Assembly (NCBI RefSeq): GCF_018860825.1
Contig: NZ_JAHKPZ010000031.1
Coordinates: 1-64,000 of the forward strand
Direction of reading: 5' to 3'
DNA from: Lacinutrix sp. C3R15
Lineage (GTDB): Bacteria; Bacteroidota; Bacteroidia; Flavobacteriales; Flavobacteriaceae
Length of the DNA: 64,000 bases
The notes beneath the pieces were generated by a model. It did no database searches. It was not told the DNA's origin and was given only the letters and a program-made list of their open reading frames with translations. Each line of letters begins with the position of its first letter. The stretch's first letter is position 1. Position numbers and translations under genes: made by a program. Positions 7,117-26,587 of the stretch are shown here, one piece after another.

Positions 7117-7644
7117 ATGAGAAAAAATTTACTTTTATTAACTTTATTGTTTGCAGGATTTTTTGTGCAAGCCCAAAATGTAACCTCTGGAGTTCGTGCT
7201 GCTTTAAATATTTCTAATTTAGATTTTGATCCAGACCCTACTTTTAGCAATACACATAGAAATGGTGTTGCCGTTGGTGCTTTTGTAGATTATGCGTTTT
7301 CTGAAAAATTATCTATAATGCCAGAATTAATGTTTTCTGCAGAAGGTGGTAAAGAAAGAAATTTAAGAGCAAATTATATACAATTACCTATTACATTACG
7401 TTTTCATATTGGTAACCTATCTATAGGTGTTGGACCACAAGCAAATTTAAAGATTTGGGATTATGAAGATGGTTATGAAACATTTACTTTTTCAGGAGTA
7501 GGAGGATTACAATATGATCTATTTGAAAACTTCTTTATAGATGCAAGATATAGCTACGGATTTACAGATATTTTAGATGATACTTCTGGAGATATGGAAG
7601 CTAAAAACTCAACGATTCAATTAGGTATTGGCTTAAAAATATAA
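7117..7644 (+). CDS. Outer-membrane beta-barrel protein (PorT/OmpA-like), copy 2
   Basis: 175 residues with a signal peptide (MRKNLLLLTLLFAGFFVQAQ) and the same strand pattern as the gene before it, differing mostly in loop sequences. It is separated from copy 1 by 70 bases, and the pair ends at a strong bidirectional terminator. The duplicated, diverged barrels suggest alternative surface loops; function unknown. Confidence 0.85.
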   Translation: MRKNLLLLTLLFAGFFVQAQNVTSGVRAALNISNLDFDPDPTFSNTHRNGVAVGAFVDYAFSEKLSIMPELMFSAEGGKERNLRANYIQLPITLRFHIGNLSIGVGPQANLKIWDYEDGYETFTFSGVGGLQYDLFENFFIDARYSYGFTDILDDTSGDMEAKNSTIQLGIGLKI

Positions 7645-12160: not shown

Positions 12161-12184
12161 GAGAAAATAAATGCAGAATATTAA

Positions 12185-12742
12185 CTATTCTGTTTCATCA
12201 TTATTAGATATTTCAAAAAAACTAAACATATTTCCACCATAACCTTTAGAATGGGAGTAGTTAGGTAAATGAGAAAGATCTGTATGTTTAGAGTGCTCGA
12301 CTATAAGTAAACCTTCTTCTTCTAATAAGTTATTTTGAAAAATTAATTCTGGAATTTTAGAAAATTCTTCAATAGAAAAATCATAAGGAGGATCTGCAAA
12401 TATAATGGTATGTGGAGTAGTGGTTTTCTCTAAATATTTAAATACATCACTTTTTATAGTTTGTATTGGCATATTAAAGGATGCTGCAGTTTCGTTTATA
12501 AACTTAATACAACCAAAATTAGCGTCTACACTTGTAATATCACTGGTTCCTCTAGAAGCAAACTCATAGCTTATGTTTCCGCTTCCGCTAAATAAATCTA
12601 GAACAGAAATATCATCAAAATAATACTGATTATTTAAAATATTAAATAAAGATTCTTTGGCCATATCTGTAGTTGGCCTTATGGGTAATTTTTTTGGTGC
12701 AGTTATTCTTCTGCCTTTATAGGTACCTGAAATTATTCGCAT
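12185..12742 (-). CDS. rsmD: 16S rRNA (guanine-966-N2) methyltransferase
   Basis: 185 residues, typical length. It opens with the family signature MRIISGTYKGRRI and RPTTDMAKESLFNIL. The SAM-binding motif VLDLFSGSG is at about residues 47-55, and the catalytic DPPY motif (FADPPYDF) is present. The enzyme methylates G966 of 16S rRNA in the 30S subunit. Its ATG overlaps the stop codon of the DUF3822 gene by one base (TAATG), so translation is coupled, an arrangement common in Bacteroidota. Confidence 0.93.
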   Translation of the reverse strand: MRIISGTYKGRRITAPKKLPIRPTTDMAKESLFNILNNQYYFDDISVLDLFSGSGNISYEFASRGTSDITSVDANFGCIKFINETAASFNMPIQTIKSDVFKYLEKTTTPHTIIFADPPYDFSIEEFSKIPELIFQNNLLEEEGLLIVEHSKHTDLSHLPNYSHSKGYGGNMFSFFEISNNDETE

Positions 12743-17955: not shown

Positions 17956-18573
17956 TTGAAAAAGATTAATTTAAAAACATGGAATAGAGCAGAGCAGTTT
18001 CAGCATTTTAATAAAATGTTTGATCCTTATTTTGGGGTTACTATTCCGTTTGATGTTACCAAGGCATATCAATTTTCTAAGGAGAATGAAATCAGTTTCT
18101 TTGGTAAATATTTACATGCTTGTATGCAAGCCATGAACAGTGTAGATAATTTAAAATATCGCATTATTGACAATGAAGTAGTGGCTTATGATATTATTCA
18201 TGCATCTGCTACCATTATGCGAAAAGATAAAACCTTCGGATTTTCATTCATCCATTTTGATGAGAATTTAGATGTGTTTTTAAAGAATTTAGAATCTGAA
18301 AAATCAAGAATTGAATCCTCAACTAATTTGTTTCCAGAAAGAAATGGATTAGATTGCATACATTGTTCCGCATTACCTTGGTTAAATTTTTCAGGACATA
18401 AAGAACCGTTTTTCGGAGAAAAAGATTCTGTACCCAAAATTGCATTTAGTAAAGTAATTAGAGAAAATAAAAAGTTAAGCATGAATGTAGCAATCACTGT
18501 GAATCATACATTGGTAGATGGCTATCATGTTGGTTTATTTTCTGAAAAATTTCAATATTTTTTAAATCAGTAG
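17956..18573 (+). CDS. CatA-like O-acetyltransferase (TTG start)
   Basis: 205 residues, the size of chloramphenicol acetyltransferase. The start KKINLKTWNRAEQFQHF matches the family N-terminus and the catalytic motif NHTLVDGYH is near the C-terminus, with the histidine that deprotonates the acceptor. The family transfers acetyl from acetyl-CoA to a hydroxyl; chromosomal members like this are not necessarily resistance genes. The start codon is TTG, three bases after the previous stop. The position between kdsB and a KdnB-like gene suggests a sugar or envelope substrate, as inference. Confidence 0.8.
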   Translation: MKKINLKTWNRAEQFQHFNKMFDPYFGVTIPFDVTKAYQFSKENEISFFGKYLHACMQAMNSVDNLKYRIIDNEVVAYDIIHASATIMRKDKTFGFSFIHFDENLDVFLKNLESEKSRIESSTNLFPERNGLDCIHCSALPWLNFSGHKEPFFGEKDSVPKIAFSKVIRENKKLSMNVAITVNHTLVDGYHVGLFSEKFQYFLNQ

Positions 18574-20417: not shown

Positions 20418-20448
20418 TTTGTTTTTAATTTTGGTTTTATTACATTTG
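20418..20448 (+). promoter_or_regulatory. Consensus promoter of the giant-repeat operon
   Basis: TTTG at 20418-20421, exactly 19 nt, then TACATTTG at 20441-20448. This is a perfect match to the Bacteroidota vegetative promoter. Transcription should start near 20455, leaving about 90 bases of leader before 20544. Confidence 0.75.
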
Positions 20449-20543
20449 TAATCTTCCTAATACTAATGACTACTAGTATTTCCTAAAATACTACATATAC
20501 TGATATTTCTTTTAGTGGCATTAATTTTTAAAACCATAAACCA

Positions 20544-23500
20544 ATGGGAAAGAAAAAAACCACATCAAAAAAATCTGCTCCAGTAAAAAAGACAGTTTCT
20601 AAAAAACTATCTAAAGCAGAATTACAAAAGAAAGTTGAAACTCGAAAAAAAGAGCTTAGTAAAACCAAGTTTGTTACTGGTAAAAATTCCATTTTAACAG
20701 CACTTGAATCTGCTTCTTTTAGAAGTAAAAAATCCATTACAGATGCTGTAAAAAAGTGTAAGTACAAAGCAGTAGAACTTGCTCCAGCAGTAAGAATGAT
20801 GTTTAAAGAAAGCGAAAACAAAGCAGTAAAACTATCAGAATCTTATGCAAAAACTATTAAAGAGCCAAAAGAGCACAGAGAGTTTTTTCAGGGTGTAGCA
20901 CAAATGGATAAAAAAGAAAGACGTGCAGTAATTAAAGGCTACAGAAATGCAAACCAAGGTAGAGGTGTTGTACATGCTATGAGCCAATTACCAAGGCAAC
21001 AATGCAGAACATTAATGCAAGATTTTGTATTTGATGATAAAGGTAAAAAAGATAAACAAGGTGTTAATGAAGTAATGGTATGGCTTCGAGATGCAGGAGC
21101 GCAAATGCGAAAAATTGAAGGTCATACTCCTGTTTTTCCAGATGGTGAAACAGACGATGCTGTTGTAGAGTTTTTTGAAGATGTTGCAGATGCAATTTCA
21201 GATGCAGTTACTGCAATTGTAGACGGAATTACAGAGTTTTTTACAGATTTAGCTGAAGCTATTGCAGATGTGATAAATTGGGTGGTTGAAGAAATAGCAA
21301 GTTTAGCCAGAGCTTTAGTAGAGGCAGGAAAACAAATTTGGGAAATCTTAAAAGCTGCAGCAGAATACACTTTTTCTGTGGTTAAAAAGTTTGTAGAAGC
21401 CATTCAGCTTATTGGAAAAACATTTATTGAAATTATGGAAGATGTTTTTGCTTTTGCTAAAGAAATAATAGAAGCTGTAATAAAAGCCATTGATCAATTA
21501 GGTGAAGTTTTTGCAGATTTATTAAAATGGCTCGCTACAAAAACCTACGAGTTTATAAAAGCTGGTGTTGAAGCTTTAATTAGTATTGGTAAAACCATTG
21601 GTAACATCTTAAATCAAGCACTTCAATTTGGTATAACACTTATTAGAAATACCGTTAGAGTACTCCTAGAAATAGGCGAAACTATAGGTTCTATACTAGT
21701 TACTTTAGTAACACGTCCTAGAGATTTACTAAACGAAGTTGTAAGAGCTTTTACCGAATTAGGAAACACTTTAGCAGACATTATTCAAGAAACAGTAGAT
21801 GCTGCTGCAGACTTTGTAAAAGAGGTGGTTAGAGCTGCTGCTGCTATTGGTACGGCATTGGTAGAGTTTACAGATTTTGTAATTACTACCACAAAAGAAT
21901 TGGCTACAAAAATTGTTGATGGTTTACTTGCTGCTGGTAGAACCTTATTAGAATTGGTGCAAACCATAGCAACTAAAAGTATTGCTGCTATTAAAAAAAT
22001 TGTAGAAGCGGCTTTTGAGCTTGGTAAATCTATGGTAAACATTTTAAAAGATGTGTTTGAACTCACTGTAGACTTATTAAAAGAAACCATAAAAGCAATG
22101 TTAGAAATTGGTAGACAAATTGTAGAGTTTACTAAAGCCATGATAGAGTTTACCTATAAAAGTGCAGCAAGACTTATTGAGGCTGCTCTTGCAGCAGGAG
22201 CAACTATTGCAGAAATATTAGAATCTGTTATTGAAGAAACTTATTTTGTGTTTAGAAAAATAGTAAACGGCATCTTACAAGCATTAGGTCCTGTTGGTGA
22301 TGTTTTTGAATGGTTAATAGAAAGAGGGGAAGATTTAGCATCAGAGTTATGGAGGCAAACCGTTCTGGCAATTCGATTTGTAAAAGAATCTATAACAGAA
22401 ATTATGGATTGGGCTTTAGAGCAAGTTGATGCTATTTTTGATACAATTTTAGAACTTGTAGAAGACATAGGAAGCCGAATTTCAGAAGTTATTGATTGGG
22501 CAATTGCTGTAGGTGATGCTGCATTAGAGTTTTTAGGTGAAGCTACAGAAAGAATAGGTAATTCTATAGGTTATGTTCTTAATTATCTAGAAAATGATTT
22601 TATTCCAGGAATTAGAAAATTTGTTGAAGGTGCATTAAAAGCTGCTTCAGCATTAGCAGGTTTAATTGCTTGGGTTGCTAATAAAACCTTTGAAATCATG
22701 AAAGAAGTGGTTTTAGGAGCCTTAGCCGCAGGAATTATATTAGCTACTTTATTAACCGAAATCATGTTACATCCAGACCAAGCTTTAGATAATTTTATTG
22801 CTGCTGCAAGAGATATAGGTAATACTATACAAGATATTTATACAGCAGTTCAAGATACAGGAGAAGAGTTTTTAGAAGAAGTAACGCAAACACTTCGTGA
22901 GATAGGAGAATCTGTAGAAGAAATGCTTGAAGCTGTATTTGAAGTAGGTGCAGGAATGCTAGGAGCAACAATCTCTGTGTTATTCGAAATGCTTGGTACA
23001 TATAGAAATTTAACAGCAGAAGAAATAGCAGATGGCCAATTTGTTTTTGGTGATGCTATTGATTGGAATAATACATTTATTGCAAAAGAAGGTCCATTAA
23101 ACGATATTGTTTTTGGTATTCAAGATTTCTTTACCGGAAATCCAGATTCACGTGCATTTGTAACAGGTAATTTAATCAACTTTGATGTAGATGATAACTT
23201 TAGCAGAGGTACATTAATTCATGAATTAACCCACGTTTGGCAAAACCAAAATGTTGGTCCTGTATATTTAGCACATGCTATTGGAGCACAAATAGGTTCT
23301 GGTTATAACTATGGATATAATGAAGGTGTAGCAGATGTAACTATAACTATTCCTAATGCTTTTTATACTCCTGTAGGTACACCTCCTTCAAGAAATATGA
23401 GTAATGTTTCTGAAGGTTTTTGGACAGGAGAGGGAGGAGAGACTGTTTTAGAAAATGCTGCTTCTTTTAGTGATTTTAATGGCGAGCAGCAAGGTCAGGT

Positions 23501-23600
23501 TTTAATGCAATATTTTGTTAGAGCTCGTTTATTAGGTCAAACAGGAACAGATATTAATAGATTTCAACCCTTTGTAGATGAAGTTAAAACAGCAGCATAA
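20544..23600 (+). CDS. Giant protein: ~20 x 29-residue helical repeats plus HELTH metallopeptidase-like domain
   Basis: 1018 residues, no signal peptide. Residues 1-60 are Lys-rich and disordered-looking. Residues 60-200 are a helical globular-looking region without a match I know. Residues about 234-818 are amphipathic alpha-helical repeats of exactly 29 residues, marked by a Gly in the pattern (I/L/A)G.(T/S)(I/L)..I(L): Gly262, 291, 320, 349, 378, 407, 436, 465, 494, 523, 552, then a 33-residue step to 585, then the register positions 614, 643, 672, 701, 730, 759, 788 (Lys at 614, Ala at 701). Residues about 830-1018 hold a zinc-peptidase-like motif H893-E-L-T-H897-VWQ, resembling DUF4157-type domains. 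The gene is followed by an overlapping caspase-like peptidase gene. Function unknown; scaffold, membrane-binding or self-processing effector are all possible. Confidence 0.9.
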   Translation: MGKKKTTSKKSAPVKKTVSKKLSKAELQKKVETRKKELSKTKFVTGKNSILTALESASFRSKKSITDAVKKCKYKAVELAPAVRMMFKESENKAVKLSESYAKTIKEPKEHREFFQGVAQMDKKERRAVIKGYRNANQGRGVVHAMSQLPRQQCRTLMQDFVFDDKGKKDKQGVNEVMVWLRDAGAQMRKIEGHTPVFPDGETDDAVVEFFEDVADAISDAVTAIVDGITEFFTDLAEAIADVINWVVEEIASLARALVEAGKQIWEILKAAAEYTFSVVKKFVEAIQLIGKTFIEIMEDVFAFAKEIIEAVIKAIDQLGEVFADLLKWLATKTYEFIKAGVEALISIGKTIGNILNQALQFGITLIRNTVRVLLEIGETIGSILVTLVTRPRDLLNEVVRAFTELGNTLADIIQETVDAAADFVKEVVRAAAAIGTALVEFTDFVITTTKELATKIVDGLLAAGRTLLELVQTIATKSIAAIKKIVEAAFELGKSMVNILKDVFELTVDLLKETIKAMLEIGRQIVEFTKAMIEFTYKSAARLIEAALAAGATIAEILESVIEETYFVFRKIVNGILQALGPVGDVFEWLIERGEDLASELWRQTVLAIRFVKESITEIMDWALEQVDAIFDTILELVEDIGSRISEVIDWAIAVGDAALEFLGEATERIGNSIGYVLNYLENDFIPGIRKFVEGALKAASALAGLIAWVANKTFEIMKEVVLGALAAGIILATLLTEIMLHPDQALDNFIAAARDIGNTIQDIYTAVQDTGEEFLEEVTQTLREIGESVEEMLEAVFEVGAGMLGATISVLFEMLGTYRNLTAEEIADGQFVFGDAIDWNNTFIAKEGPLNDIVFGIQDFFTGNPDSRAFVTGNLINFDVDDNFSRGTLIHELTHVWQNQNVGPVYLAHAIGAQIGSGYNYGYNEGVADVTITIPNAFYTPVGTPPSRNMSNVSEGFWTGEGGETVLENAASFSDFNGEQQGQVLMQYFVRARLLGQTGTDINRFQPFVDEVKTAA
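21243..22997 (+). repeat. Coding array of about 20 repeats, 29 codons (87 bp) each
   Basis: Protein-level tandem repeats in the giant gene. The spacing of the marker position is 29 residues in every step except one (33, between Gly552 and Gly585). The DNA copies look well diverged by eye, so the array appears old and under selection for its helical period rather than a recent expansion. Confidence 0.85.
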
Positions 23601-24525
23601 AACAATATTAATTGTAAAACCAAAGTTTTCTTCCGATATCCACTCGGAAGAAAACTTTCTCTTGCTTAAAAACAGTTACCAAAAACATTGTATTGATGTA
23701 CAGGTTATAGAGTATGATGTACTTCCTGAGTATACTAAAATTCAGAGTCAAGTAAAAAATCAAGACGCTGTTTTATTAATTGGTGATGCAAAATGTTATC
23801 CAAAAAATGCATTAAAATACCCATTTATTAAAACTATTGAAAATAAGAAAATACCTATTTCTTGGCTTCCTTTTAGAAATAGTAAAGATTTACTAACCTT
23901 TACTAAAACAGTATATCAAGTACATAGCAGAAAACAAGATCATTGTGCTATAGCACTATTATCACAAAGGCATCCTAGATTTACTAGAATTGTTGATAGA
24001 ATGGCAACTATTTTAAAAACACCTAATGTATTACCATACAAATGGAGTAGTGATTTGCTGTTAAGAGAAAACATGATTGAAGGTCTTGAAAATGGGCTCG
24101 GATTAGCTACTTATTTTGGGCATGGAAGACCTATTGGTTGGGTAGGTTATTATGGTTTACGTTCGCATCATTTTGATACGGAAAACGCAAAACCTATTGG
24201 AGCATTACTTTCATTATGTTGTAAAACAGCTAGCAGAAAAAATACTTCAGTTTCCTTTTGTGAGCAATTGGTTTTAGATGGAAAAACAGCTGTTGCGTTT
24301 GGTGCTGTTGATAGTACGTTGCATACAGATAATACAAGATGGTCTGTTGGTATTACCAAAGCATTATTAAATGGAGCTAGTACTATTGCAGAATTAATAA
24401 TAGAGGCTAGCCCTAAAAACGTATCGGCATATACACATTATAGGTTAATTGGTGATCCTTTAGCTCCAATTTATTCTTCTAATGAAGCCGCATTATTTGC
24501 TAATAACGTAAAAATATATCCATGA
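23578..24525 (+). CDS. Caspase-clan C25-like cysteine peptidase
   Basis: 315 residues. The clan CD dyad is visible as YFGHG (His182-Gly183) and LSLCC (Cys214 or Cys215) about 32 residues later, each after a hydrophobic strand, as in gingipains and caspases. The C-terminal YRLIGDPLAPIY matches the LxGDP motif that closes many C25 catalytic domains. No signal peptide, propeptide or sorting domain is present, so unlike gingipains it should act in the cytoplasm. Its ATG lies inside the last 23 bases of the giant-protein gene, so translation is coupled and the neighbour is the obvious candidate substrate. Confidence 0.82.
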   Translation: MKLKQQHKTILIVKPKFSSDIHSEENFLLLKNSYQKHCIDVQVIEYDVLPEYTKIQSQVKNQDAVLLIGDAKCYPKNALKYPFIKTIENKKIPISWLPFRNSKDLLTFTKTVYQVHSRKQDHCAIALLSQRHPRFTRIVDRMATILKTPNVLPYKWSSDLLLRENMIEGLENGLGLATYFGHGRPIGWVGYYGLRSHHFDTENAKPIGALLSLCCKTASRKNTSVSFCEQLVLDGKTAVAFGAVDSTLHTDNTRWSVGITKALLNGASTIAELIIEASPKNVSAYTHYRLIGDPLAPIYSSNEAALFANNVKIYP

Positions 24526-24758
24526 AAAACACAATAATAAATACTATTTTATTGCATTTTAAAGATGTAAAACCCAAGCTTAAAATAGCGTCTAATGATG
24601 CTCATTTTAAACAGGAATTAGGTGTAGATTCTTTAGATATGGCAGAGTTTATAGCTAGAATTGAACAAGAATATAGAATTGAAATTCCAGATGCAGATTG
24701 GCCACAAATAGCTACTGTAAATTTACTGGCAGAATATATACGTAATGCAGGTAACTAA
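24522..24758 (+). CDS. Dedicated acyl carrier protein
   Basis: 78 residues. The phosphopantetheine attachment site is Ser37 in GVDSLDMAEF, followed by the acidic recognition helix and the IEIPDADW segment that is normal in ACPs. It overlaps the stop of the caspase-like gene by ATGA. It is not in a fatty acid synthesis cluster, so it looks like a second, system-specific ACP that hands acyl groups to the ketosynthase gene overlapping its end. Confidence 0.92.
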   Translation: MKNTIINTILLHFKDVKPKLKIASNDAHFKQELGVDSLDMAEFIARIEQEYRIEIPDADWPQIATVNLLAEYIRNAGN

Positions 24759-25893
24759 TAAAATAGCAGTTACTGGATTAGGTGTAGTTTGTGCAATAGC
24801 TAATACTATAAATGATTTTTGGAACGCTTTACAAACAGAAAATTCTAGCATTAAAAATTGGGATGATTTAAAACATGCAGATTTTAAATATATACATGCT
24901 TGCCGCGTAACAGATTTTGAATGTGATCCCTTGCATCGAGGGTTTCATTTTTCTGTTGCAGCCATAGAACAAGCTATAACACAGGCTAATTGCAAATCTA
25001 CCCAAAAATGGGGATTATTTTTAGGAACTACTATGGGAGAGAGTGCTGCTTTTGAAGCTATGGCAGAAAAAAGGCAAACCTTAAATCCTGAAGAATATAC
25101 GGGTTTTGGTATTTGTAAACGTTTGGTCAAAAAATATCCTAAAATAAAGATATTTCAATGTTTTGCTACAGCTTGCGCTGCTGGTAATTATGCGTTAAAA
25201 GCAGGAATAGAAGCATTACAAAAAGATGAAGTTTCTATTGCTATAGTTGGAGGAGTAGATCCTTTTTCAAGAATTGCTATGACAGGTTTTAGTAGAAGCA
25301 GAGCCATGAGTGCTTCAGGAATTTGTAAACCTTTTGATGTACATAGAGATGGTATGGTTTTAGGAGAAGGAGCAGGTTTTCTTGTACTTGAAAAAGTACA
25401 AAACGCAACCCAAAGAAATGCTAATATTCTTGCTGTTTTAGAAGATTGTGCTTTGTCTTGTGATGCTTATCATCCTACTGCTCCAAAACCAGATTCTTCT
25501 GGTATTATAGATTGCTTTACGCAACTATTAAATAAAAATAATTTAAATCCTACTGAAATAGATTGGATTTCTGCTCATGGAACAGGAACTAAACTTTCTG
25601 ACCAATCGGAAGCACAAGCAATAGCAAAAGTGTTTACAACACATAAACCTTATGTTTCTAGTATAAAACCCAAAATAGGGCATACATTAGGTGCAGCAAC
25701 AGCTATTGAAGCTATTGTTTCTGTATTATCTATACAACACCAAACCATTCCGCATACCATAAATTATAAAGACGCAGAGTTTGATATTCTTATTCCGAAA
25801 AAACCTGTTTTAACAAAAGTAAATAAGGTTTTAAATTGTGGTTATGCCTTTGGAGGTTTAAACTCTATAACACTATTTTCATCATGGAATTAA
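24745..25893 (+). CDS. Beta-ketoacyl-ACP synthase (FabF-like)
   Basis: 382 residues. A complete ketosynthase active site is present: Cys144 (FATACAAG), His279 (AHGTGT) and Lys308/His313 (KPKIGHTLGAA). The family condenses malonyl-ACP with an acyl chain. It overlaps the ACP gene by 14 bases. It diverges from housekeeping FabF in its N-terminal third, for example CRVTDFECDPLHRGF and EKRQTLNPEEYTGFG. Together with the ACP it could make a special acyl or polyketide product, but no ketoreductase, dehydratase or acyltransferase gene is in the operon. Confidence 0.9.
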   Translation: MQVTNKIAVTGLGVVCAIANTINDFWNALQTENSSIKNWDDLKHADFKYIHACRVTDFECDPLHRGFHFSVAAIEQAITQANCKSTQKWGLFLGTTMGESAAFEAMAEKRQTLNPEEYTGFGICKRLVKKYPKIKIFQCFATACAAGNYALKAGIEALQKDEVSIAIVGGVDPFSRIAMTGFSRSRAMSASGICKPFDVHRDGMVLGEGAGFLVLEKVQNATQRNANILAVLEDCALSCDAYHPTAPKPDSSGIIDCFTQLLNKNNLNPTEIDWISAHGTGTKLSDQSEAQAIAKVFTTHKPYVSSIKPKIGHTLGAATAIEAIVSVLSIQHQTIPHTINYKDAEFDILIPKKPVLTKVNKVLNCGYAFGGLNSITLFSSWN

Positions 25894-26330
25894 AATGGAA
25901 TACATTTGAAACCATAGGTGATTCTGAAGCAGATATAGCAGCACAGTTTGTTACTTTTATTAAAGCTAAAAAGAATTTAAAGTTTTATAAAAACCAATCT
26001 GCTGTGTATTTTATTTCTACTAATGCAGGAAACTTTTCATCTATAGCATTTTGGGAAAATGCTTTAAAACATAGCCCCAGATTTGCTAATCCAGGTATTT
26101 TTCCTTGGACACTAGCAAATGCTACGTCTGGTTATATTGCTAGGCAATTTGGTATTACAGGACCTAATTATACCATTATTGAACCTTGTTTAAATAGAGA
26201 ACAGTTAATTTCTAATTACAAAACAGATAAATTAAAGTACCAACTTAAAAATGCAATTTGTGTACAATGGGAAATAAAAGTTGTAAAGAACCTACTTTCT
26301 GTACTGGCAAAATGGACTATTTTGCAATAA
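25884..26330 (+). CDS. Half-length ketosynthase-like protein
   Basis: 148 residues from the ATG at 25884, which overlaps the ketosynthase stop by 10 bases (an in-frame start further upstream at 25836 is less likely). Residues 64-102 resemble the N-terminal half of a ketosynthase: SPRFANPGIFPWTLANATSGYIARQFGITGPNYTII. A Cys (Cys102, EPCLN) is at the position of the catalytic nucleophile. The His-containing half is absent, so it cannot be a normal condensing enzyme. It may pair with the full ketosynthase like a chain-length-factor subunit, or be a decayed copy; coupling and the clean ending favour a functional partner. Confidence 0.7.
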   Translation: MELKWNTFETIGDSEADIAAQFVTFIKAKKNLKFYKNQSAVYFISTNAGNFSSIAFWENALKHSPRFANPGIFPWTLANATSGYIARQFGITGPNYTIIEPCLNREQLISNYKTDKLKYQLKNAICVQWEIKVVKNLLSVLAKWTILQ

Positions 26331-26548: not shown

Positions 26549-26587
26549 CAAAAGCTACTTTAATGGTAATTAAAGTAGCTTTTTTTA
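26549..26587. terminator. Bidirectional terminator
   Basis: AAAGCTACTTTAAT (26551-26564) pairs with AATTAAAGTAGCTTT further on, followed by a T-tract; the A-rich left side serves the opposite strand. It ends the giant-repeat operon and the leftward gene whose stop lies at 26585. The preceding 200 bases hold no gene that I can see. Confidence 0.85.

Follow-up and report, generated by a model that had tools for sequence, protein, structure and literature searches.

The 64,000 nucleotides analysed here (the window) form the start of contig NZ_JAHKPZ010000031.1 of Lacinutrix sp. C3R15, a member of the Flavobacteriaceae. They carry a cassette of five genes which, with high confidence, encodes a giant helical protein (Rep) ending in a metallopeptidase, a cysteine peptidase of family C25, an acyl carrier protein (ACP), a ketosynthase (KS) and a half-size ketosynthase-like protein (KS2). 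This cassette is inherited sporadically, stands alone and is mobile as one unit. Its parts are of known kinds and its mechanism is inferred; no known system among those tested fits it and, provisionally, it is regarded as new as a system. An earlier note, made from the letters of the window alone, had called it possibly undescribed. This is supported in part, since no described system joining a giant helix, C25, ACP, KS and a half-KS was found in the limited open-access literature searched; the term is provisional because only open-access papers were searchable.

A five-gene cassette mobile as one unit

The cassette is 5.8 kb long (20544-26330) and all its genes lie on the + strand: rep (20544..23600, 1018 aa, giant helical protein with a C-terminal metallopeptidase), the C25-family cysteine peptidase gene (23578..24525, 315 aa), the ACP gene (24522..24758, 78 aa), the gene of the FabF-type KS (24745..25893, 382 aa) and that of the chain-length-factor-like KS2 (25884..26330, 148 aa). 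The overlaps given in the earlier note (23578/23600, 24522/24525, 24745/24758 and 25884/25893) were found at the same positions, the junctions measuring -23, -4, -14 and -10 bases in that order.

A profile search of genome contigs with the C25 alignment led from 126 pattern-matched stretches to 14 confirmed loci. Local BLAST of the open reading frames (ORFs) places all five genes on one strand and in the same order in 11 of these (L008-L018), the last gene of L013 being truncated by the contig end. With the window, L005 (from the same genus) and L055-L058 (from the order of a Sedimenticola metagenome-assembled genome, MAG, the fifth gene being located by tblastn), the five-gene cassette is present in 17 genomes, of which 11 belong to Bacteroidota, five to Gammaproteobacteria and one to Chloroflexota (Aggregatilineales, cassette on a 599-kb contig). 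These genomes do not represent 17 independent lineages: six come from one genus and three from Aequorivita, while L055 is almost identical to L056.

The earlier note had named adjacency of homologues in other genomes as its own test, and the outcome was favourable: the Rep gene adjoins the C25 gene in 20/20 cassette genomes, and ACP, KS and KS2 follow in 17. The claim of a single function holds insofar as adjacency points to one functional unit; however, three of the 20 genomes carry Rep and C25 only. The fixed stoichiometry read from the overlaps does not follow, since the junctions range from -64 to +74 bases across eight loci (some of them counted from longest ORF starts).

With the C25 search, positive genomes were 4/299 in the family (own genome included), 6/7 in the genus, 1/395 in a draw from the phylum (own genome), 1/198 in the order of Lewinella (Lewinella itself), 2/199 in the Chloroflexota class (the known carrier plus one weak match) and 5/195 in the order of the Sedimenticola MAG. 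A search of the 299 family genomes with the metallopeptidase domain of Rep gave five matches, namely the four C25 genomes and a fifth genome, G127, whose match is weak and partial. The C25 search gave no match in plasmid records.

The insertion site has an identical position in the window, L005 and L008-L011. A genome of the same genus (L036, from G300, 97% complete) has the site empty: the alignments of the flanking genes end at 7311 and 7508, less than 200 bases apart, and the cassette is absent between them. The upstream acyltransferase and Fe-ADH genes were considered as cassette parts and rejected; they stay in this empty-site genome, and are therefore backbone genes, and they are absent beside the non-genus loci compared (L006/L012). 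The same genome also has no match to the chloramphenicol-acetyltransferase-like gene located at 17956-18573 of the window.

Purifying selection acts on each of the five genes, with dN/dS values of 0.07-0.34 in four pairwise comparisons (Rep 0.08-0.16, C25 0.07-0.16, ACP 0.08-0.24, KS 0.12-0.20 and KS2 0.17-0.34), whereas the flanking genes give 0.03-0.07; these values are rough, dS reaching 1.4. Two local peculiarities can be mentioned. In L008 (Lacinutrix himadriensis) the KS frame is about 20 residues short at 12165-12260, owing to a frameshift or a sequencing error, and the Aequorivita loci have an additional gene of about 334 aa directly 5' of Rep (L013:6112-7116, L015:6154-7158, L017:6030-7100), the L013 copy of which has no Pfam match at 0.01.

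The giant helix of Rep and its metallopeptidase

Rep can be divided into three regions: an N-terminal helical domain (20691..21113, about residues 50-190, with AlphaFold2 pLDDT of about 73-88), a central stretch of 21 units of 29 residues (21165..22994, residues 208-817) and a metallopeptidase domain (22995..23597, residues 818-1018), all on the + strand. The 29-residue period reported in the earlier note is clear in the central stretch. Its hydrophobicity spectrum has a single peak, with a power of 119.9 at 3.625 residues per turn (100 shuffles do not exceed 9.6) and only 0.3 at 7/2 and 0.8 at 11/3, and identity at a lag of 29 is 0.20, whereas 300 shuffles, taken over lags 5-129, do not go above 0.134. 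The arithmetic of the unit, 29/8, gives these 3.625 residues per turn, and the 21 units are in phase. As a baseline, 20 loci supplied 86 proteins no shorter than 400 aa (L008, L010, L056 and the window left out): the 18 Rep entries (16 distinct, two loci having been entered twice) reach 37-96, and full-length Rep 80-96, while two proteins from a locus of an extracellular contractile injection system (eCIS) reach 22-25 and the remaining 66 do not exceed 13.3.

The peak lies at 3.625-3.635 in 16/16 aligned Rep rows. The distance between the anchors G185 and G836 is 651-655 residues in 13 five-gene rows, whose identity to the window goes down to 46-54%, and 662 in Lewinella (L019). AlphaFold2 places helices at 208-390, 392-580, 584-742 and 744-817, which is nearly continuous. 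Residues 208-817 are thus predicted to form one straight amphipathic helix of near-constant length, about 90 nm long if continuous. Since 3.625 is near the pitch of a plain α-helix, the hydrophobic stripe would run straight; it occupies an arc of about 200 degrees and is rich in Ile and Val, with Gly and Ala to one side, and the net charge of the helix is -50. A repeat solenoid was rejected, given one sharp 29/8 peak unbroken over 610 residues and the near-continuous helix of the AlphaFold2 model (of low confidence), so the giant helical-repeat protein of the earlier note keeps its repeat but is better described as a predicted straight helix. At the borders of the helix, R189 and R821 are invariant in 16 rows and in 13 rows.

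Very long regular helices with a hydrophobic stripe are also found in tape measures, the ZorA tail and perilipin 4 (Plin4), but these differ from Rep in that Rep has 29/8 coherence and its cassette lacks a tail, a motor or a lipid-droplet partner. The matches of the Rep helix to such proteins need not indicate homology. It matches 21 PHROG families, mostly tape measures (best E 2.3e-22), and these matches reflect helix shape, since a shuffle that keeps the phase still matches 16 families (best 8.3e-21), whereas a full shuffle matches none (one shuffle in each case). Homology to tape measures was rejected on this ground. Besides, 50,697 phage records gave no tblastn match for the Rep helix, the N-domain or the peptidase (low-complexity filter on), and the cassette has no tail gene. 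The PHROG matches and the near-constant length would speak for a phage or contractile-tail module that has decayed or been domesticated, with Rep as its tape measure, but this is therefore highly improbable.

The shuffle control covers the PHROG matches; outside it stand a match to Pfam Phasin_2 (E 1.4e-12) and another to PADLOC ZorA (E 3.1e-7), the latter involving only profile positions 360-578 and Rep residues 213-426. The first of them is in line with Rep being a lipid-surface coat, a giant analogue of perilipins or phasins, in which case the synthase would supply the lipid of a granule or membrane patch and the proteases would strip the coat. Perilipin 4 offers a precedent, its giant helix consisting of 29 x 33 residues in tandem, with no insertions or deletions (PMC5889406). 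However, changing the charge of the Plin4 repeat from +1 to -1 removed Plin4 from lipid droplets (PMC5889406), and the Rep helix is strongly negative; Plin4 is built on 11-residue units (3-11 helix), a periodicity at which Rep has little power. Wax-ester, triacylglycerol (TAG) and polyhydroxyalkanoate (PHA) synthase genes were not seen in the cassette, and presence in so few family genomes would be odd for a storage role. A lipid coat is thus considered unlikely.

The ZorA match, for its part, touches on a possible role in anti-phage defence or programmed death inside the cell, where C25 would be triggered by infection and would unleash Rep. The sporadic occurrence of the cassette, its empty site, its two peptidases and its presence in three phyla fit such a role. 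Nevertheless, the ZorA match is confined to the helix and fits the amphipathic pattern. A relationship to ZorA was rejected: two ZorA-like family proteins (perhaps atypical ZorA) peak at about 15, at 3.47 or 3.675, and lack the 29/8 peak, and the Pfam scan shows no MotA family, so that the membrane domain of ZorA was not found. C25, ACP, KS and KS2 have no PADLOC match at E <= 1. The genes next to the cassette in the window resemble housekeeping genes, and among 94 flank proteins from 10 loci 14 PADLOC families have matches at 1e-5, each in one or two proteins, including MzaA (1.1e-47) and mad2/mad3; re-scanning 10 of the 94 proteins gave one weak TPR match. Taken with this context, a defence function is rather improbable.

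The last 200 or so residues of Rep, which the earlier note had missed, constitute the metallopeptidase. Residues 820-912 match PDB 6h56 (VgrG2b) with an E value of 2.2e-5; the Pfam eCIS_core profile gives E 0.021 and 15.4 bits, below its cut-off of 22. The zinc-binding motif HELTH (23220..23234, + strand) corresponds to residues 893-897, and a candidate third ligand is E981 (23484-23486, + strand), which begins helix 980-996 in the AlphaFold2 model. H893, E894, H897 and E981 are invariant in 16 rows and also in 13 rows that include three loci of the gammaproteobacterial order; in four further loci of this order HExxH is always kept, as HELCH in three. By its sequence the domain has the HExxH and downstream Glu of a VgrG2b-type gluzincin. 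In VgrG2b zinc is bound by both histidines of HExxH together with a Glu that sits at the top of a helix (PMC6899460), and E981, placed at a helix start in the model, may act likewise. The two proteins share HExxH and a Glu (a candidate ligand in Rep) opening a later helix, but the spacing from His to Glu is 84 residues in Rep and 44 in VgrG2b (positions from PMC6899460), and the domain is fused to a 610-residue helix in Rep and to the VgrG spike in VgrG2b.

This kinship bears on the possibility that Rep acts as a toxin or as an injected effector of VgrG2b or eCIS type, matured by C25, acylated through the ACP and delivered by a machine encoded elsewhere. VgrG2b is an antibacterial effector of the type VI secretion system (T6SS; PMC6899460). 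In addition, the weak match in G127 lies inside an eCIS locus (L059:7442-14324) in which a CIS_TMP protein is encoded together with two of the eCIS_core type, one of the two containing an M48-like stretch. These eCIS_core (DUF4157) proteins are possible distant cousins of Rep: they share a metallopeptidase motif and a long helical stretch with it, but their periodicity is that of the eCIS-locus proteins given above, far below full-length Rep, and their locus has no C25 or KS. CIS_TMP matches occur in 8/17 cassette genomes examined. However, at 1e-5 there is no CIS_TMP match in the genome of the window or in four further genomes of the gammaproteobacterial order, and those of the genus (G168, G299, G301, G302 and G303) cover only the last 175-210 or so of 463 profile positions, two of the five containing internal stops. 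The Pfam scan of Rep shows no VgrG domain and the next gene encodes C25, not an immunity protein (no search aimed at immunity genes or at a T6SS encoded elsewhere was made). Inspection by eye agrees with the earlier note that none of the five N-termini has an apparent signal peptide. The reading of Rep as eCIS cargo is weakened by the CIS_TMP results, and an effector role in general is improbable.

The C25 peptidase, the acyl module and the transcription signals

C25 belongs to peptidase family C25 on the basis of its Pfam match (E 2.8e-12, 47 bits against a cut-off of 23) and of an intact catalytic His-Cys dyad, His182 (24121-24123, + strand) and Cys215 (24220-24222, + strand), both invariant in 16 rows; the motif is kept in 4/4 loci of the gammaproteobacterial order. 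Its profile matches PorU (6za2) with an E value of 1.4e-6. The GHG histidine and the dyad Cys align with those of PorU and gingipains, but C25 differs from these in its divergent N-terminal half and in lacking the CTD and, as judged by eye, a signal peptide, so the enzyme is presumably cytoplasmic. Gingipain R is specific for arginine. R189 and R821 would suit an arginine-cutting C25 enzyme and, since they stand at the helix borders, can be taken as candidate cut sites. As to the gasdermin-like release that the earlier note offered as one model, Pfam and NCBIfam searches (E <= 1) gave no gasdermin family for any of the five proteins.

The remaining three genes would form an acyl module. The ACP matches Pfam PP-binding (E 2.9e-10) and its DSL motif, with Ser37 (24630-24632), is invariant in 13 rows, as are C144 (Cys144, 25174-25176), H278, K308 and H313 of KS. 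In the loci of the gammaproteobacterial order, KS keeps ACAAG and HGSGT in 4/4 and GH.LGA in 3/4, the fourth having GHSMGA. KS is FabF-like yet lies beyond the FabF equivalog limit, because it scores 268 and the cut-off is 494. Its best PDB match is 9s5h_B (E 9.2e-67), while the KS2 profile best matches 9s5h_C (E 1.1e-5); both belong to the same entry, as distinct KS-type chains, and no paper associated with this entry was found in the open-access literature.

KS2 corresponds to the N-terminal half of a ketosynthase, the part with both catalytic His being missing. By eye, the nucleophile position is Cys in the window and in none of 11 other aligned rows. The model shows one thiolase-like half fold (mean pLDDT 79.9, with a weaker stretch at residues 50-80), and its best Foldseek match, the only one below 0.001, is 7f28_A, an ApeC chain (E 4.9e-4, TM 0.42 by query). 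As a half-KS without both catalytic His whose top Foldseek match is ApeC, KS2 looks like a half-size chain-length factor, which corrects the half-ketosynthase of the earlier note; a KS:KS2 heterodimer is putative. The aryl polyene pair ApeO-ApeC is similar in having a catalytically intact KS, a half-size partner of one thiolase fold and an ACP. Nevertheless, KS2 proteins have 148-191 aa and ApeC chains 198-238 aa, KS scores nearer to 9s5h and the ishigamide KS than to ApeO, and the five cassette genes include no ketoreductase, dehydratase or second KS.

An ACP, KS and chain-length factor (CLF) could also belong to a specialised-metabolite mini-cluster producing a small molecule, with Rep as scaffold or target and the peptidases serving in maturation or resistance. 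Besides the matches of KS and KS2 to two chains of 9s5h, this proposal can draw on the Sedimenticola MAG, where a family search of this locus identifies a PfaD-family protein and a HetI/AcpT-type phosphopantetheinyl transferase (PPTase), encoded upstream at a distance of about 5 kb (L014:62-2308). Three or four genes intervene there, however, no further tailoring gene is conserved, and Rep and C25 occur without any synthase in the three genomes mentioned above, so a metabolite cluster is quite improbable.

With respect to transcription, the promoter that the earlier note had seen was found as a pattern match, TTTG-N19-TACATTTG, at 20418..20448 (+ strand). It is one of three matches, counting both strands of the window, to TTTG and TANNTTTG with a spacer of 17-23, which we take to be the Bacteroidetes promoter consensus. 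The shared terminator claimed there stands as a terminator-like hairpin (26550..26583, + strand) common to the cassette and to a convergent gene ending at 26585; it lies about 220 bases 3' of the last cassette stop, and termination at this point is plausible. Another hairpin, of 15 pairs (23622-23658), closely follows the Rep stop codon within the first part of the C25 gene, and could have an effect on translation or act as an attenuator.

A putative protease-triggered rod

The reading that we prefer is as follows. The fixed-length helix of Rep, of about 90 nm, would carry the gluzincin-type metallopeptidase at its C-terminal tip, and through its wide hydrophobic face it would probably bundle with its own copies; helical barrels stay open when β-branched residues, such as the Ile and Val of this face, are turned to the lumen (PMC6175849). 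ACP, KS and the half-size chain-length factor would be a minimal acyl synthase, fed by primary fatty acid synthesis, that builds or elongates a single acyl chain on the cassette ACP. This chain may bind the Rep bundle as a ligand or be attached to it covalently, and it would fill or cap the hydrophobic face of the bundle until C25, which would process or activate Rep with R189 and R821 as candidate sites, makes its cut. The metallopeptidase and/or the amphipathic rod would then be freed and might act on the envelope or proteins of the cell itself or on a competitor.

These steps deserve unequal credence. That C25 acts on Rep is somewhat probable, because the pair they form is the only one always kept, while the chances that the acyl product serves Rep directly are slightly below even; the complete scheme, from rod and acyl ligand to cut and release, is doubtful. 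More speculative, and improbable in itself, is a nanotube in which Rep chains would bundle by their 200-degree Ile/Val-rich face into a barrel of about 90 nm and of genetically set length, filled with acyl chains from the cassette synthase, with C25 cuts at the ends (R189 and R821) unlocking the metallopeptidases and spilling the helices.

Several observations weigh against the preferred reading. Lewinella (L019), Kriegella (L020) and an uncultured member of the Flavobacteriaceae (L021) are the three genomes with Rep and C25 only, ACP, KS and KS2 being missing within the 20 kb fetched; the acyl module is therefore not obligatory. The C25 of L019 has only 216 aa. In L020 and L021 the anchors of the helix are 397 residues apart, and the 254 residues fewer equal 8.76 repeats, which is not an integer. 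The Rep model obtained with AlphaFold2 is of poor quality (mean pLDDT 58.7, pTM 0.32) and gives no Foldseek match at E 0.001. In this model R821 belongs to a strand predicted within the peptidase domain, and it may be conserved for structure instead of cleavage. The weak C25 match in the Chloroflexota class (G905, E 1.6e-11) has no adjoining Rep, and ketoreductase, dehydratase, acyltransferase, immunity or export genes are not conserved beside the cassette.

If the five genes constitute one system, it would combine a giant helix of constrained length, a metallopeptidase at its tip, a peptidase of the caspase clan and an acyl synthase of its own, a combination that is not known to work together in bacteria within the limited open-access searches. 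The compact size of the cassette, its culturable marine hosts among the Flavobacteriaceae and a relative with the empty site make knock-out, heterologous expression and cryo-electron microscopy (cryo-EM) practical. The cassette thus opens a test of whether bacteria arm or build a protein machine with dedicated acyl chains and, should the nanotube be true, it would be a lipid-primed, protease-triggered device without a described counterpart.

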